DNA of 38,916 nt from Faecalibacterium sp. (GTDB taxonomy: Bacteria; Bacillota; Clostridia; Oscillospirales; Ruminococcaceae): positions 1 to 38,916 of the forward strand of contig JARHYC010000023.1 in NCBI GenBank assembly GCA_029264955.1, given 5' to 3'. Each line of letters starts with the position of its first letter. Positions within the stretch are counted from its first letter, which is position 1. Made by a program: the position numbers and the translations under genes. Shown piece by piece: positions 24,353 through 35,055 of the stretch. The notes beneath the pieces are model-generated. The model was given only the letters and a program-made list of their open reading frames with translations, was not told the DNA's origin and did not search any database.

Positions 24353-24396
24353 TTGGTTTCACCTCGTTTCCTCATTATCTCTATAATCCTGTAAAC

Positions 24397-24518
24397 AAAA
24401 AACCTCTTTCCCGCACTGAGACGAGAAAGAGGCGCAATACAATCATCGTATCGTGCGTTTCTCGGCAGGCGGCGATTGGCCTTATGCTATTACAGCACCT
24501 GCTGTCTTAAAAACAGCA
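24397..24518 (-). ncRNA. L10 leader with intrinsic terminator/attenuator
   Basis: Minus strand leader between the rplJ promoter and rplJ. It contains the L10-leader-like segments AGCAGGTGCTG and GCCTGCCGAG, and ends in a hairpin CCTCTTTCTCG/CGGGAAAGAGG (24422-24432 with 24403-24413) plus TTTTTT. The L10(L12)4 complex is known to bind such leaders and repress its own unit; here the hairpin implies control by termination. Confidence 0.75.
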
Positions 24519-24523
24519 TAACT

Positions 24524-24552
24524 ATTTTATCGCACGAACGCGATTTTGTCAA
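24524..24552 (-). promoter_or_regulatory. Promoter of rplJ-rplL
   Basis: Minus strand: TTGACA (24547-24552), a 17-nt spacer, TAAAAT (24524-24529). It lies just after rplA and makes rplJL a separate unit. Confidence 0.9.
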
Positions 24553-29740: not shown

Positions 29741-31543
29741 ATGAGCAATTACAACCCCCGTCAGTCCGCTATGGACCAGGCACGCGATCTACTGACCCGT
29801 GCTGCCAGTACTGCTATGGAAGCAGGCGATCTGCCTGCTGCCGAGCTGCCCGCATTTATCGTGGAGATTCCTTCCGACACCAAGAATGGCGACATTGCTT
29901 CTAACATCGCAATGGCTGGCGCTCGTACTTGGCACAAGGCTCCTCGCGTGATTGCTGACGCAATCGTGCAGCACCTTCCCACTCTCGAAGGATCTTGCTT
30001 CTCGAAAGTCGAAGTTGCAGGTCCCGGCTTCATTAACCTGTTCCTGGCACCCAGCTTTTTTGCCGGTGTTGTGGTAAATGCCTGCTCTGATGCGGACTAC
30101 GGCCGTACCGATTTCGGTAAAGGTCAGAAGGTAAACGTGGAATTTGTTTCCGCAAACCCCACCGGCCCCATGCACATGGGCAACGCACGCGGCGGCGCTC
30201 TGGGCGACTGCCTGGCTGCTGTTCTGGACTGGGCTGGTTATGATGTGACTCGTGAGTTCTATGTCAACGATGCAGGCAACCAGATTCAAAAGTTTGGTAA
30301 GAGCTTGGCTGTGCGTTATCTGCAACACTTCACCAGCGAAGAAACTTATCCCCTGCCCGCTGAGTGCTATCAGGGCGGCGACATCAAGGTTCTGGCAGAC
30401 GAATTCATTAAACTGGAAGGCGACAAGTATCTGGCATCCTGCCAGGCTGTTTCTGCAACTCTGACCGACGAGCTGCTGGAAAGCGACGCTTTCTCTGCAC
30501 TGAAGGACGCACTGGTTGCTTACGCTCTGCCCAAGAATATTGCTGCACTGAAGCGTGATCTGGGCAAGTACCGCATCGACTATGATGTGTGGTTCCACGA
30601 GAGCGAGTTGCATAACAGCGGCATGGTTCAGGAGGCTATCGACAAGCTGCTGGCTACCGGTGCTTGCTACAAGGCTGAGGACGGTGCCGTCATGTACCGC
30701 AGCGCACAGTACAGCTCCAAGTACGGTGTCGCCAACAAGCGTAAGACCGACGATGGCAGCGAAGAAGAAGCCAAGGATGAAGTTCTGGTTCGTGCAAACG
30801 GTATCCCCACTTACTTCGCCGCTGATATCGCTTACCACTACAACAAGTTGGCTACCCGCGGCTTTGACAAGTGCATCGACGTTTGGGGTGCAGACCACCA
30901 CGGTCACGTTGCCCGTATGAAGGGCGCTATGGACGCAATCGGTCTGGACGGCAGCAAGCTGGATGTTGTTCTGATGCAGCTGGTCAACCTGATGCGTGAC
31001 GGTCAGCCTGTCCGTATGAGCAAGCGCACCGGCAACGCAATCACTCTGACCGATCTGCTGGAGGAAGTGCCTATCGACAGCGCACGTTTCCTGTTCAATA
31101 TGCATGATGCTGGCAGCGGTATTGACTTTGATCTGGGGCAGGCTGTTCGCGAGGACAACGAAAACCCGGTCTACTACGTCCAGTATGCACACGCTCGTAT
31201 CTGCTCCATCCTGCGCAAGCTGGAGAGCGAGGGCGTAACCTTCATCGGTGCAGACAAAGTCGACGCTACCCTGCTGACTGATCCTGCTGAAATGGATCTG
31301 ATCCGTATGCTGATGAACTTCCCCACCGAAATCATCATGGCTGCTGAGAAGTATGATCCCAGCCGCATCAATCGTTTCGTCATTGATTTGGCTAGTGCAT
31401 TCCACCGCTTCTACAACAACTGCCGCATTCAGGGGGCTGACCCTGCTCTGCAGCAGGCACGTCTGGCTCTGTGCTTGGCTGTGCGTGCGGTTATTCGCAA
31501 TGTGCTGACTATGTTCAAGATCAACGTCCCCGAAACGATGTAA
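29741..31543 (+). CDS. argS: Arginyl-tRNA synthetase
   Basis: Class I synthetase charging tRNA-Arg. The 600-residue product has the N-terminal Add-1 domain, NPTGPMHMGNARGG (the HIGH-type motif reads HMGN), FYVNDAGNQI, WGADHHGHVARMKGA, the MSKR form of KMSKS at about 425-428, and the DALR anticodon-binding domain (RICSILRKLE, RINRFVIDLASAFHRFYNNC). The ribosome site is AAGGAG. Length is slightly above the usual 550-590. It has a promoter and a strong terminator, so it stands alone. Confidence 0.96.
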   Translation: MSNYNPRQSAMDQARDLLTRAASTAMEAGDLPAAELPAFIVEIPSDTKNGDIASNIAMAGARTWHKAPRVIADAIVQHLPTLEGSCFSKVEVAGPGFINLFLAPSFFAGVVVNACSDADYGRTDFGKGQKVNVEFVSANPTGPMHMGNARGGALGDCLAAVLDWAGYDVTREFYVNDAGNQIQKFGKSLAVRYLQHFTSEETYPLPAECYQGGDIKVLADEFIKLEGDKYLASCQAVSATLTDELLESDAFSALKDALVAYALPKNIAALKRDLGKYRIDYDVWFHESELHNSGMVQEAIDKLLATGACYKAEDGAVMYRSAQYSSKYGVANKRKTDDGSEEEAKDEVLVRANGIPTYFAADIAYHYNKLATRGFDKCIDVWGADHHGHVARMKGAMDAIGLDGSKLDVVLMQLVNLMRDGQPVRMSKRTGNAITLTDLLEEVPIDSARFLFNMHDAGSGIDFDLGQAVREDNENPVYYVQYAHARICSILRKLESEGVTFIGADKVDATLLTDPAEMDLIRMLMNFPTEIIMAAEKYDPSRINRFVIDLASAFHRFYNNCRIQGADPALQQARLALCLAVRAVIRNVLTMFKINVPETM

Positions 31544-31562: not shown

Positions 31563-31617
31563 AACCAAAAGCGCTCTGCCTTTTTTACTTAGGCAGAGCG
31601 CTTTTGGTTTCTTATCT
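31563..31617 (+). terminator. Terminator of argS
   Basis: 18-bp perfect stem AACCAAAAGCGCTCTGCC (31563-31580) with its complement at 31592-31609. Of the gap 31618-31858, only an inverted repeat CTATACGGTAT/ATACCATATAG (31631-31641 and 31660-31670, one mismatch) stands out. Confidence 0.92.
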
Positions 31618-31858
31618 TTCTCTATCTTCACTATACGGTATAGCCGCCCTTTCAGCCGCATACCATATAGTAACTACAGCATTTTTTGCCCAAAAAACGA
31701 CAAAAAAGAGGTGAACCGCTTTCTTTTTCCGCAGCCCACTTTTATTATTATACTGCGCTTACCATTCAGTTTCAATAGTCCATGAAAGAAACAGCAAAAG
31801 TGCATAATTCTCAAAGAGAACTCCGTACATTCTGCGAATAGAAAACGACCTGTCTATG

Positions 31859-31867
31859 TGGTATTAT
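31859..31867 (+). promoter_or_regulatory. Extended -10 promoter of the large RNA
   Basis: TGGTATTAT (TGN-TATTAT), overlapping a second TATAAT register at 31865-31870. No -35 match. Start of transcription is expected near 31874. Confidence 0.6.
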
Positions 31868-32164
31868 AATGCCAACAAAAGAGAACATCTTAAAGAGATG
31901 GGAAGGCTGAATAAGCCAGAAAGACCAATACAAGGTCGAATGAAAGGAGCGTAGATCCGATGGCAATTGAACCCGCACAGTTTGGACAGGCTGTCGGGAC
32001 TCGCTGATCGATTACAAACGACACTTATTTTGAAAGGGTATGAACCCCGACTGGAATAGATAGCAAGTGCATTTCGGTTGTAACGCAGTGAGGGACGGAA
32101 TGAAGCCCGACAGGCCTGTCACGTAAGTTCGCAAGAGCTGAAAAGCAGATGATGATAGATTTGG

Positions 32165-32400
32165 AAGGAGTCGATGTCTTTATGAAAAGATTTTTCGCTC
32201 GTCCGATATCCATCTACTGAAAAAGGAGAACTCCAATGTACTAGTTTAGTATCGCGAAAGCGAAAGCCTGATATTACATCGGCTAGTATGCATATAAGAT
32301 AAGGACGTGAGGGACCATGAAAATGGTAGATTGTCCGCCTAACACGTTAGTGTAGCGAGGTAATTCCCATGTTCTAGTTGATTTGAGCAACCCCGATCCC
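32165..32400 (+). repeat. Tandem unit A of the large RNA
   Basis: First copy of a roughly 235-nt unit. From 32188 to 32246, 51 of 59 bases match unit B at an exact 260-nt offset. A helix CTC-GTCC (32198-32204) with GGAC-GT-GAG (32303-32311) closes most of the unit; TACTAG/CTAGTA (32239-32244 with 32283-32288) lies inside. Confidence 0.85.
32182..32377 (+). other. Micro-ORFs in unit A (hypothetical)
   Basis: Four very short frames, most with a Shine-Dalgarno-like sequence: MKRFFARPISIY (32182-32220, after GGAAGGAG), MY (32236-32244, AAGGAG 7 nt before ATG), MKMVDCPPNTLV (32317-32355), MF (32369-32377, GAGGT 7 nt before ATG). Their starts and stops recur in unit B. With two copies, substitutions do not show a clear codon pattern, so coding is unproven. 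Confidence 0.3.
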
Positions 32401-32424
32401 CTAAGGAGAATATTGTGGTTAGAT

Positions 32425-32655
32425 AAGGAGTGGTTATCTTGATTCAAAGATTTTTCGCTCGTCCGATCTCCACTAATTAAAAAAGGAGCAGTCCAATGTA
32501 CTAGTTAGAATTTGTCGGAACCTGAATCACATCGGTTAACATGTTTACAAAAGAAGGACACGAAAAGCCCATGCATATGGAAAACAGTCCGCATGACACC
32601 GTAATGTAGAGAGGTTAAGTCCCATGTTCTAGCATCATTGAGCACCCCGAATCTC
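32425..32655 (+). repeat. Tandem unit B of the large RNA
   Basis: Second copy. The closing helix is kept as TC-GTCC (32459-32464) with GGAC-AC-GA (32556-32563), with the same 2-nt bulge at the same place but a different sequence. The CCAT-N4-ATGG hairpin is kept (32569-32580). A hairpin AGATAA/TTATCT (32421-32439) joins the two units. Confidence 0.85.
32439..32632 (+). other. Micro-ORFs in unit B (hypothetical)
   Basis: Counterparts of those in unit A: TTG-started frame encoding IQRFFARPISTN after the start (32439-32480, AAGGAG 8 nt upstream), MY (32496-32504), MHMENSPHDTVM (32571-32609), MF (32624-32632). The stop of the first is TAA where unit A has TGA at the aligned position. Confidence 0.3.
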
Positions 32656-32749
32656 CGAACCAAAGGTTGTTGAGTCTATGAAAGATACGAAACAGTCCGA
32701 AAAATAGGTTATAAAGGGTATGAGGCTATGACTCCAAAGAAGTAATTAG

Positions 32750-32787
32750 GGCAACTCCCGGGTGACGATCCGGGGGTTGCCTTTTTA
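32750..32787 (+). terminator. Terminator of the large RNA
   Basis: GGCAACTCCCGG (32750-32761), an 8-nt loop, CCGGGGGTTGCC (32770-32781), then TTTTT. Confidence 0.93.
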
Positions 32788-32975
32788 TTGCAATATTCTC
32801 TACCCCTTCCGGTATGTGATTCTTCCGGGAGGATTTTTCTTTTTATACGAGTTCATGCAACACAGCATATAACAAAATCGAATCCTCTTTTCATACGTTC
32901 ACGCAAGCTATCGTCTTTTTCTCTTAGAAACGCTGCTTTCAAAGGCATTGGACCATATCTTTTTGCTGTACATTA

Positions 32976-32984
32976 TGGTATAAT
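32976..32984 (+). promoter_or_regulatory. Extended -10 promoter of metG
   Basis: TGGTATAAT. The leader of about 85 nt can form either GCCC-TTGC-GGGC (33003-33014) or TTTGCC/GGCAAA (33000-33005 with 33020-33025), and GGCTG/CAGCC (33016-33037). Confidence 0.65.
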
Positions 32985-33075
32985 ATTTACTTGTATTGGT
33001 TTGCCCTTGCGGGCAGGCTGGCAAATTTCAGGCAGCCGTTCCATTCGCGGCGCCGCTTTGAAAGGAAAGATATCC

Positions 33076-35055
33076 ATGGAAAAGAAAAAATTCTACATCA
33101 CGACCCCGATTTATTATCCCAGTGATAAACTGCACATCGGCCACAGCTACACCACTGTCGCTTGTGATGCTCTGGCACGCTACAAGCGTATGCAGGGCTA
33201 CGATGTTATGTTCCTGACCGGTACCGACGAGCACGGCCAGAAAATTCAGGACAAGGCTGCTGATAAGGGCGTGACTCCCAAGGAGTATGTGGACGAGATC
33301 GTTGCCGGCGTAAAAGAATTATGGAAGAAGATGGACGTCAGCTATGACCGCTTCATCCGTACCACCGACGAATACCATGTCCAGGCTGTACAGAACATCT
33401 TCACCCAGCTGTATGAGCAGGGCGATATCTACAAGAGCACCTACAAGGGTATGTACTGCAAGCCTTGTGAAAGCTTCTGGACCGAAGCTCAGCTGGTTGA
33501 TGGCAAGTGCCCCGACTGTGGCGGCCCCGTTTACGAGGCAGAGGAAGAAGCATATTTCTTCCGTACCAGCAAGTATGCTGACCGTATCCTGCAGTGGTAC
33601 GAGGAGCACCCGGATTTCATCCAGCCCGCTACTCGCCGCAATGAGATGATTGCCTTCATCAAGCAGGGTCTGCAGGATACCTGTGTTTCCCGTACTTCTG
33701 TGTCCTGGGGCATTCAGGTTCCCTTTGATCCTAAACACACCATCTATGTCTGGATTGACGCACTAAGCAACTATATCACCGCTCTGGGCTACGGCAATGA
33801 CGCTCACGACGATTTCCAGAAGTACTGGCCTGCTAACATCCACATGGTCGGTAAAGAAATCCTGCGTTTCCACACCATCATCTGGCCTGCTATGCTGATG
33901 GCTCTGGACCTGCCCCTGCCCCAGAAAGTATTCGGTCACGGCTGGCTTCTGCTCAGCGGCGGTAAGATGTCCAAGTCCAAGGGCAACGTCATCGATCCCG
34001 TCAAGCTGTGCGACCGCTATGGCGTCGACGCTGTGCGTTACTTCCTGTTGCGTGAGGTCCCCTTCGGCAACGATGGCACCTTCACCAACGAAGCACTGAT
34101 CAACCGCATCAACACTGACCTAGCCAACGACATGGGTAACCTGCTGAGCCGTACCGTCGCTATGTGCGAGAAGTACTTTGGCGGCACTGTCACCGCTAAC
34201 GGTCAGGCTGACACTCTGGACGACAACCTGAATGAGATGCTGGCTGCTATGCCCGGTAAGGTTGACGCTGCTATGGAAGCTTTGGACGTACCCCAGGCTC
34301 TGATTGCTATTTTTGAGGTCATCCAGCGCGCTAATAAGTACATTGACGAAACCGCCCCCTGGGTTCTGGCTAAGAGCGAAGAAAACAAGGCTCGTCTGGA
34401 AATGGTTATGTACAACCTGTGTCATGTGCTGCACACTGTCACCGTACTGATGCAGGCTTACCTGCCCAACACCGCACCCAAGATGGCCGAGCAGCTGGGT
34501 CTGTCTGCTGAGGAGCTGGATTACAACAACCTGTCTGCTGCTCCGGCACAGTACACCGTCCACAAGGGCGAAGCACTGTTCCCCCGTATCGACGTAGCAA
34601 AGGAAATCGCTTACCTGGAAGCTGAAGATGCACGCCGCAAGGCAGAAGCTGAAGCTGCCGCTGCTGCAAAAAAGGCTGCTGAGGATGCTAAGAATGCACC
34701 TGCTGAGCCTATCGAGCACGAGCCCGAAATCAGCTTTGATGATTTCTGTAAGGTTGAGCTGCTGGTTGGCGAGATCCGCAAGTGCGAAACCATGCAGGAG
34801 AGCAAGAAACTGCTGCACCTGACCGTATTCGACGGCGAGCGTGAGCGCTGCATCCTGTCCGGTATTGCAAAGTGGTACAAGCCGGAAGACCTGATTGGCA
34901 AGAAGATCGGTATTGTAGCTAACCTGGCTCCCCGCCCCATGATGAAGGGCAAGTATGTGAGCGAAGGCATGATTTTCGCTGCTGACACCGCTGATGGCGG
35001 CTGTGCAATCCCCTTCTATCCGGACAGCGTCGCAGCTGGCAGCCGTATTCACTAA
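33076..35055 (+). CDS. metG: Methionyl-tRNA synthetase with C-terminal tRNA-binding domain
   Basis: Class I synthetase charging initiator and elongator tRNA-Met. The 659-residue product has HIGH at 20-23 (KLHIGHSYTT), a zinc knuckle with two CxxC pairs (about 128-147), KMSKS at about 297-301, the anticodon-binding helices, an Ala/Lys-rich linker (about 515-545), and a C-terminal EMAPII/Trbp111 domain (KLLHLTVFDG, CILSGI, APRPMMKGKYVSEGMIF). This domain resembles the one fused to LysRS at the start of the window. The start at 33076 follows AAAGGAA. tatD follows after 3 nt. Confidence 0.96.
   Translation: MEKKKFYITTPIYYPSDKLHIGHSYTTVACDALARYKRMQGYDVMFLTGTDEHGQKIQDKAADKGVTPKEYVDEIVAGVKELWKKMDVSYDRFIRTTDEYHVQAVQNIFTQLYEQGDIYKSTYKGMYCKPCESFWTEAQLVDGKCPDCGGPVYEAEEEAYFFRTSKYADRILQWYEEHPDFIQPATRRNEMIAFIKQGLQDTCVSRTSVSWGIQVPFDPKHTIYVWIDALSNYITALGYGNDAHDDFQKYWPANIHMVGKEILRFHTIIWPAMLMALDLPLPQKVFGHGWLLLSGGKMSKSKGNVIDPVKLCDRYGVDAVRYFLLREVPFGNDGTFTNEALINRINTDLANDMGNLLSRTVAMCEKYFGGTVTANGQADTLDDNLNEMLAAMPGKVDAAMEALDVPQALIAIFEVIQRANKYIDETAPWVLAKSEENKARLEMVMYNLCHVLHTVTVLMQAYLPNTAPKMAEQLGLSAEELDYNNLSAAPAQYTVHKGEALFPRIDVAKEIAYLEAEDARRKAEAEAAAAAKKAAEDAKNAPAEPIEHEPEISFDDFCKVELLVGEIRKCETMQESKKLLHLTVFDGERERCILSGIAKWYKPEDLIGKKIGIVANLAPRPMMKGKYVSEGMIFAADTADGGCAIPFYPDSVAAGSRIH

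Follow-up and report, generated by a model that had tools for sequence, protein, structure and literature searches.

Faecalibacterium carries a free-standing, structured RNA gene of about 0.9 kb that is real and unclassified, without a family in Rfam 15, and that very probably holds a chain of translated minigenes. In the window, meaning the whole 38,916-nt stretch of DNA analysed here, the gene lies between argS (ending at 31543) and metG. Comparison of homologues shows that the Shine-Dalgarno sequences (SDs), start codons, reading frames and stops of its mini-ORFs are kept, while most of their peptides are not, a pattern suggesting that what counts is translation itself and not what it makes. 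Given such a chain, translation rather than the peptide is fairly likely to be what is selected. For the full reading, a structured RNA gene whose conserved function would be repeated translation for almost no product, along a chain of ribosome stops, the chances are about evenly balanced. Faecalibacterium is a major commensal of the human gut, and the RNA is kept in this dominant genus and in ten sister genera.

Boundaries, neighbours and distribution

The gene is laid out in the window as follows.

31839..31870, + strand: promoter TAGAAA-17-TATTAT with extended -10, aligned and conserved in 15 homologues
31875..32787, + strand: RNA, the predicted transcript from promoter to terminator end, placed by the positions of both and by homologues with the same two ends
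31960..32007, + strand: ORF1, 15 codons (MAIEPAQFGQAVGTR, then stop), SD AAAGGAG; E-P-x-Q motif kept in most genera
31985..31998, + strand: left arm of long-range helix P1, in ORF1; 32000-32006 extends the arm
32106..32120, + strand: right arm of P1, with a bulge at 32114; 32086-32092 pairs with 32000-32006
32182..32220, + strand: unit 1 ORF, 12 codons (MKRFFARPISIY, then stop)
32236..32244, + strand: two-codon minigene ATG TAC TAG (M-Y), SD GGAG
32317..32355, + strand: unit 1 second ORF, 12 codons (MKMVDCPPNTLV, then stop)
32369..32377, + strand: two-codon minigene ATG TTC TAG (M-F)
32439..32480, + strand: unit 2 ORF, TTG start, 13 codons (IQRFFARPISTN after the start); tandem copy of 32182-32220
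32496..32504, + strand: two-codon minigene ATG TAC TAG (M-Y)
32571..32609, + strand: unit 2 second ORF, 12 codons (MHMENSPHDTVM, then stop)
32624..32632, + strand: two-codon minigene ATG TTC TAG (M-F)
32678..32707, + strand: ORF6, 9 codons (MKDTKQSEK, then stop); frame and A run compensated between species
32728..32745, + strand: ORF7, 5 codons, ATG ACT CCA AAG AAG TAA (MTPKK, then stop); in 28 of 28 genus homologues
32748..32787, + strand: intrinsic terminator, 16-pair stem (32748-32783) and T run, from the terminator scan

Comparison with homologues shows a predicted single transcription unit with its own promoter and terminator. The window promoter has an upstream TG and 9 of 12 consensus matches; in relatives, it reads TAGACA-17-TATAAT (TGGACA in one), and in 15 homologues both the promoter and a terminator hairpin are aligned. 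The extended -10 promoter and strong terminator of the first-pass annotation thus stand as aligned sites but not as patterns, where neither exceeds chance on its own (4 promoter-like sites against 3.2 expected, 1 terminator against 1.3). That annotation was also right about two tandem units (an 82-nt repeat with 83% identity, 260 nt apart), about the lack of a protein-length plus-strand frame in the unit, and in seeing a discrete, structured and possibly new RNA gene, which has its own promoter and terminator and no Rfam family. Its label 'non-coding' is probably wrong. The label arose because 'no protein-length frame' was counted as non-coding, and it passed over 13 SD-preceded mini-ORF starts, although few features of the gene are conserved as well as its SD, start and stop signals.

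The gene is flanked by argS and/or metG in the window, and likewise in the chicken clade and some others, but it is not tied to this site: in the human F. prausnitzii clade, it has different neighbours. A leader of argS or metG was rejected because the neighbours change between clades. Upstream argS is also found at all 4 g33 loci, at all 3 g37 loci and at one locus each of g50 and g83 (our handles for other genera of the family), suggesting that the site after argS is old. By eye, a long inverted repeat with T-rich and A-rich flanks at 31563-31609, after argS, resembles a bidirectional terminator separating argS from the RNA gene. Faecalibacterium also conserves a block upstream of the RNA (TCTGCGAATAGACA, window 31825-31845), often with TTGTAC or TTGTGC in front of it, and g37 has a shorter form; since the block exceeds the needs of a -35 box, it is possibly an operator.

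The annotation could not place the RNA in ROOL, GOLLD, OLE or raiA, and covariance-model scans with Rfam 15 (cmscan) bear this out, with none of the four found in the window at gathering scores or in 31600-33080 to E = 10. Twelve homologue loci gave no family match across the RNA, the sole matches being three tRNAs upstream of it in L113, and 6 loci scanned at E <= 1 gave only sub-threshold matches to other families. A known large RNA is ruled out in that no Rfam 15 family matches. The tRNA genes of L113 lie upstream of the RNA at 906-1139 on the minus strand, in one g50 genome. The sole gathering-score match in the window is an ordinary ribosomal protein L10 leader (RF00557, 54.9 bits) at 24388-24529 on the minus strand. 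A mobile or phage RNA was rejected on its absence from viral contigs (one strict exact pattern) and from plasmids and phages (blastn with one 718-nt query). A published collection of microbiome RNA candidates, given as 27-219 bp in the part of the source cited, may include a fragment of the RNA gene (PMC8040213).

BLAST with the window copy found the RNA gene in 28 of 31 Faecalibacterium genomes, the three misses being genomes that are 77-83% complete, while a second query found it in 27 of 31 overall and in all 22 with a completeness of 90% or more. The genome of the window has a single copy. All 21 named pattern matches to the locus type were Faecalibacterium, and none of 30 genomes of other genera from the family and order matched at the DNA level. 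Covariance model R1, of the 5' block, matched 16 of 396 family genomes and reached other genera; model R2 matched 43 (7 Faecalibacterium and 36 of other genera), and with 353 of 396 unmatched by R2, the gene is patchy in the family. Among the 36, of which 35 were examined (G281 left out), 28 were taken as true members from script-made ORF lists, the DNA itself being viewed for part of the loci. They fall into ten genera: g33 (4), g37 (2), g43 (2), g45 (1), g50 (6), g56 (2), g72 (1), g73 (2), g83 (5) and g134 (3). Seven R2-matched genomes without the chain (G091, G185, G243, G245, G299, G412 and G431) are not members, and a family match in G182 (L097) was a false positive within a long ORF. The full chain occurs in g33, g37, g45, g50, g83 and g134; in g43, g56 and g73, ORF1 was accompanied by no more than one to three very short frames, and the g72 copy is cut by a contig end. 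Both g37 genomes hold two tandem copies. In G066 and G183 (L095, L096 and L098), two tandem copies each have their own promoter and terminator by eye, and one G183 copy has a decayed ORF6, as in a duplication in progress.

Outside the family, nothing convincing appeared among the sampled order and class genomes. At order level, R2 matched 16 genomes, 7 of them outside the family with E values of 0.002-0.02; the two of these seven that were read (L128 and L131) are ordinary coding loci. A strict E-P-V-Q pattern, which misses Faecalibacterium itself and covers only part of the family, had matches in 5 of 351 genomes at class level and 4 of 335 at order level, one being the known member G079. Six of the eight others were read (L153 and L155 left out), and these comprise three longer coding frames (92-347 codons) and three matches without an in-frame motif.

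Conservation of the mini-ORF chain

In the window, 13 SD-preceded ATGs open frames of 2-15 codons, four of them two codons long, a count that includes the probably incidental frames MKGA, MSL, MKPDRPVT and MVDCPPNTLV (each up to its stop, the last nested in another frame). These 13 starts in 879 nt stand against an average of 0.45, and never more than 4, in 744 other, overlapping segments of the 38.9 kb on both strands, and against a mean of 1.99 in dinucleotide shuffles, 0 of 300 of which reached 13. Across 28 homologues, 5-13 SD-ATG frames of at most 25 codons were found in each, against 0.5-2.9 in dinucleotide shuffles, and 0-4 of 300 shuffles reached the observed number.

The order of ORF1, unit ORF, first two-codon frame, ORF6 and ORF7 is the same in all 28 Faecalibacterium copies, with SDs ahead of the frames. 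Two-codon frames, 2-4 in number, alternate there with frames of 7-17 codons, and the length classes of the copies differ between ORF1 and ORF6. ORF1 is 15-22 codons long in Faecalibacterium and 14-28 overall, intermediate ORFs are 7-17 codons overall, and ORF6 has 7-9 in Faecalibacterium; ORF7 reads ATG ACT CCR AAG AAG TAA in 28 of 28 and in the window leaves 2 nt between its stop and the terminator stem. The unit consists of a 10-17-codon frame followed, 15-19 nt past its stop, by ATG-NNN-stop (28/28), and in the last unit 26 of 28 copies have a frame 5-18 nt ahead of the two-codon ATG, none being found in L006 and L007. Other genera follow the same style, with ORF1 variants such as MSNTEPVQQWQARGR, MFSDTTPAQNGRLGSC, MVIEEPVQFWQDGTCR, MKIEEPVQFWQVCAD, MYHTEEPVQLVQGV and MNLIEPVQFFGRG, after which come M-Y, M-C, M-W and similar minigenes, often one beside the terminator; the most distant genera have only ORF1 and one or two minigenes.

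SD-preceded two-codon frames, each AUG, one sense codon and a stop, number 125 in 57 loci of 11 genera, including a few probably incidental ones (e.g. L003 position 268). Their second codons are TAC (85), ATT (20), TGC (6), TGG (5), TTC (3), ATC (3), AAC (1), GAA (1) and AAA (1), never TAT, and their stops TAA (50), TAG (44) and TGA (31). A GGAG..CTCC hairpin often precedes the two-codon ATG and would hide its SD. As many as 99 of the 125 second codons start with U (TAC, TGC, TGG, TTC), which we take to be the codon class read by i6A37-type tRNAs; codon choice, an RNA motif or sensing are possible. In addition, NYA/NYAA recurs after two-codon stops (TAGTTAA, TAAGTAA, TAGCTAA; e.g. window 32245-32250), which may point to an RNA motif overlapping with the minigene.

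The stops are exchanged for one another. When slots are identified from the second codon and the upstream sequence, without reference to the stop, the first two-codon slot has a stop in 28 of 28 (TAA 19, TAG 7, TGA 2), and its six changes on the tree are all from stop to stop. The last slot has one in 22 of 28; it changed five times, and two or more of these changes led to a sense codon (L008 and L012; L017, L018, L020 and L021); the six genomes without this stop read MYS-stop, MHTSS-stop or MYTSN and onwards. The first unit ORF, identified as the frame with a stop close to the first two-codon slot, ends in TAG (16), TAA (8) or TGA (4), with four changes. Alternative starts also occur, namely TTG (window 32439) and GTG (L140) in place of ATG.

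In ORF6, the frame is rescued through an A run after CCG: A5 always goes with an ATG in phase 1 and A4 with one in phase 2, and a stop always follows. This match holds in 18 + 17 instances (35/35, of which 34 are distinct, one copy being counted via two overlapping loci), leaving out nested ATGs and one chance match (L090), and the number of independent phase switches is small because close relatives share one state. ORF6 is lost in one of the two G183 copies. Gap runs are also rarer within ORFs, with 6 in 181 ORF columns against 44 in 446 outside among 16 genomes, and 1 in 219 against 55 in 897 among 8 chicken-clade genomes. Pooled, this gives 7 per 400 columns inside and 99 per 1343 outside (p = 7e-6, taking columns and gap runs as independent); a third, overlapping 8-genome alignment, left unpooled, has 3 runs in 179 columns inside and 28 in 436 outside. 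Runs inside ORFs of 3, 6 and 9 are multiples of three, and those of 1, 2 and 5 keep the stop by compensation or extension, the chicken-clade run of 2 sitting at the ORF1 boundary.

For the peptides, 20 of 66 single-base codon changes in 12 close pairs are synonymous against 25.3% expected (p = 0.40), and changes by codon position number 49/38/54. Within the genus, this synonymous test gives no sign of purifying selection on amino acids in the mini-ORFs, at limited power (the test leaves out frames that differ in length and 34 codons that differ at two or three positions, and the pairs partly share branches). ORF1 keeps E-P-x-Q in most genera, with T-P-x-Q in g37 and part of the genus and H or C for the Q in a few, and its proline codon differs synonymously only in g73. 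The third positions of its CCC, CAG, GTC and GGG codons never vary within the genus, and many third positions are invariant at bases that also pair; together with TAC never being TAT, this indicates that RNA-level constraint is mixed in. As peptides, E-P-x-Q (ORF1, most genera) and MTPKK (whole genus) may matter. The remains of one broken long protein were rejected, as the peptides vary freely and the frames restart with SDs.

Predicted competing helices at ORF1

The long-range helix P1 joins GACAGRCTGTCGGG at the end of ORF1 to a segment about 50-130 nt downstream, and in the window copy (L001) 0 of 200 shuffles are as stable. Across 15 species, 2 of 12 pairs have changed on both sides (GC/CG, AU/GC). 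The covariation score, and the number of such cells, are reached by 1 of 500 shuffles, while two of five measures are not above shuffles (pairs changed on both sides, 104/500; pair types, 500/500). Slid partners pair at 22-45%, against 88.9% for P1. In a duplex test that left out g43, g45 and g73, and for which ORF1 of L002 was manually truncated at codon 17, P1 ranks among the top 5% of shuffles at 31 of 52 loci, with at least one locus in 7 of 8 genera, and below that mark at 21 of 52, including most of the human clade, most of g50, and g56. At the corresponding place, other genera form the pairing from quite different sequences: in g33, GGCAGGCACGGGG pairs with CCCCGTGTTCCTGCC (0-3 of 200 shuffles as stable in four loci), and in g56, TGCAGGGCGTATAA, including the stop codon, pairs with TTATGCGCTCTGCA (a 14-bp match, with 14 and 29 of 200 shuffles as stable).

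The ORF1 arm of P1 can also fold into a hairpin inside ORF1 itself. Covariation in homologues was found for 5 of 21 predicted pairs, and the top pair of the hairpin covaries as UA (16), CG (8) or UG (4). Because P1 and this hairpin share one arm, they cannot form together. ORF1 with its mutually exclusive helices therefore has the build of a leader-peptide attenuator, with putative switching in the cell. With covarying helices in its homologues, the gene constitutes a structured RNA family, and comparison shows predicted helices alongside the frames and stops.

Folding overall is moderately better than in shuffles, with a z of -2.75 for the window copy (0 of 20 shuffles fold as well) and of -2.10 for L008 (20 shuffles). 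The first-pass annotation had judged the RNA unusually structured, and the effect is indeed clear but not extreme. Its 8-bp helix (31991-31998 with 32106-32113) is exact and forms the core of the longer pairing of 31985-31998 with 32106-32120; the left arm falls inside ORF1, and the covariation on which the annotation made the helix depend is found in P1 (15 species, score reached by 1/500 shuffles). Its three 5' hairpins open the minimum-energy fold, and the centroid holds the long-range helix. As for its three GNRA hairpins, two were recognised by eye (CGC-GAAA-GCG at about 32252 and GUUC-GCAA-GAGC at about 32128), and the third was not identified.

Translation as a possible function and known systems

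A chain of this kind could work through the ribosomes it engages. Each mini-ORF would hold a ribosome briefly at a fixed place, and at two-codon frames with good SDs a ribosome would initiate, stop and restart on the spot. A ribosome on ORF1 would have to open both P1 and the ORF1 hairpin, and on its leaving the RNA could choose again; translation of ORF1 would decide between P1 and the hairpin inside ORF1. Ribosomes at later frames would keep downstream hairpins open and shield the RNA. Upon a drop in initiation (starvation, cold, antibiotic), the RNA would refold or be cut, and it could report or buffer ribosome activity in trans. A chain in an RNA without a main ORF would then be a device for holding or counting ribosomes, in which the frames are presumed to be translated, a switch to respond to translation and something to read the result. 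A ribosome-gated switch in particular is possible but doubtful. We propose only tentatively, at somewhat less than an even chance, a new class of bacterial gene in which a folded RNA uses ribosomes as moving parts, as a sensor or buffer of ribosome activity. If right, a gene selected for translation without a meaningful product would exist in Faecalibacterium and relatives, making the distinction between coding and non-coding RNA less sharp. Such loci could escape both gene finders, for which the frames are far too short, and RNA finders, to which frame selection is invisible. The locus would also serve as a natural model of two-codon translation, of re-initiation and of the refolding of RNA driven by ribosomes.

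The conserved SDs, starts, stops and frames would also be expected of a polycistronic micropeptide gene, in which the short peptides themselves (E-P-x-Q ORF1, K/R-rich 7-14-mers, formyl-Met-Tyr) are the product, e.g. as signals. E-P-x-Q across most genera, with synonymous CCC/CCG and GTG/GTT/GTA differences, and MTPKK in 28 of 28 speak for it. Yet residues differ freely between close species, the 20 of 66 amount to no synonymous excess within the genus, the dipeptide varies (M-Y, M-I, M-C, M-W, M-F, M-N), and ORF7 is MTPII or MTPIG in g37, so that we consider this gene type unlikely. Extending the view of the first-pass annotation, the SD-like and AUG-like segments could be untranslated structural or protein-binding motifs of an ornate non-coding RNA. 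Covarying helices, third codon positions frozen where paired, conserved bases past stop codons and the lack of a known protein product agree with this, but it leaves unexplained the exchange among exactly three stop codons, the compensated frameshifts with the stop kept, the fewer indels in frames and the GTG/TTG starts (L140; window 32439), and we rate it as quite unlikely.

The 125 AUG-NNN-stop frames with SDs in 57 loci also recall a translation-control RNA of the lambda bar type. On induction, such an RNA would slow growth, its many two-codon minigenes causing peptidyl-tRNAs to drop off and sequestering ribosomes or Tyr/Ile/Cys/Trp tRNAs. Two-codon minigenes are described as the most toxic, and strong SDs as promoting on-spot re-initiation, in the cited part of PMC8708949. 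This type of control seems improbable, however, for a gene that looks housekeeping (22 of 22 near-complete Faecalibacterium genomes) and whose neighbours differ between clades, leaving it no fixed partner gene. In addition, TAC is presumably a common rather than a rare codon in Faecalibacterium. A leader-peptide attenuator, with ORF1 and alternative helices controlling read-through into a downstream gene, would make use of the two mutually exclusive pairings of one segment and of the last minigene ending 2 nt before the terminator stem in the window. It is highly improbable, as the RNA is closed by its own strong terminator and stays while the downstream gene differs between clades (metG or others); on these grounds, control of a downstream gene was not found among the predicted features.

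The preferred reading, a free-standing RNA selected for being translated, shares features with several known systems. The insect tal/pri is a polycistronic micropeptide gene that was first taken for non-coding, and the transcript predicted here likewise consists of very short ORFs easily taken for non-coding; unlike tal/pri, no amino-acid conservation was found in the mini-ORFs except for E-P-x-Q (ORF1) and MTPKK (within the genus). The leaders tnaC and ermC are leader-peptide attenuators, or ribosome-arrest leaders, in which translation of a short ORF opens a helix competing with another pairing, as putatively here, but the present RNA has many frames, no fixed downstream gene and its own terminator. 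To our knowledge, ROOL, GOLLD, OLE and raiA lack conserved mini-ORFs. The RNA gene resembles them in being long, structured and free-standing, with a function that is mostly unknown for that group in the cited part of PMC12286853, and differs in that no covariance model of any of them matches it. No free-standing RNA of such build was found in Rfam 15 or in the open-access literature searched by title and abstract.

In the frames themselves, the gene resembles two-codon minigenes, of which lambda bar is a bacterial system. Minigenes with an SD and AUG-NNN-stop have been reported in the bacterial leaders axe-txe and ycbK, where, in the part of the source cited, ribosomes re-initiate on two-codon frames with good SDs without leaving and shield the RNA from nucleases, and overexpressed frames are toxic via peptidyl-tRNA (PMC8708949). 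There, translation of the frame and not the peptide has the effect, and the minigenes act in cis, e.g. by shielding the mRNA (PMC8708949, same part). The likeness of the present frames to those of axe-txe, ycbK and lambda bar lies in the SD and AUG-NNN-stop. While those systems, as far as the cited text describes them, place one or two frames ahead of a real gene, the present gene is a free-standing, terminated RNA without a main ORF that in Faecalibacterium carries 2-4 two-codon frames among longer ones of 7-17 codons, and it spans 11 genera.
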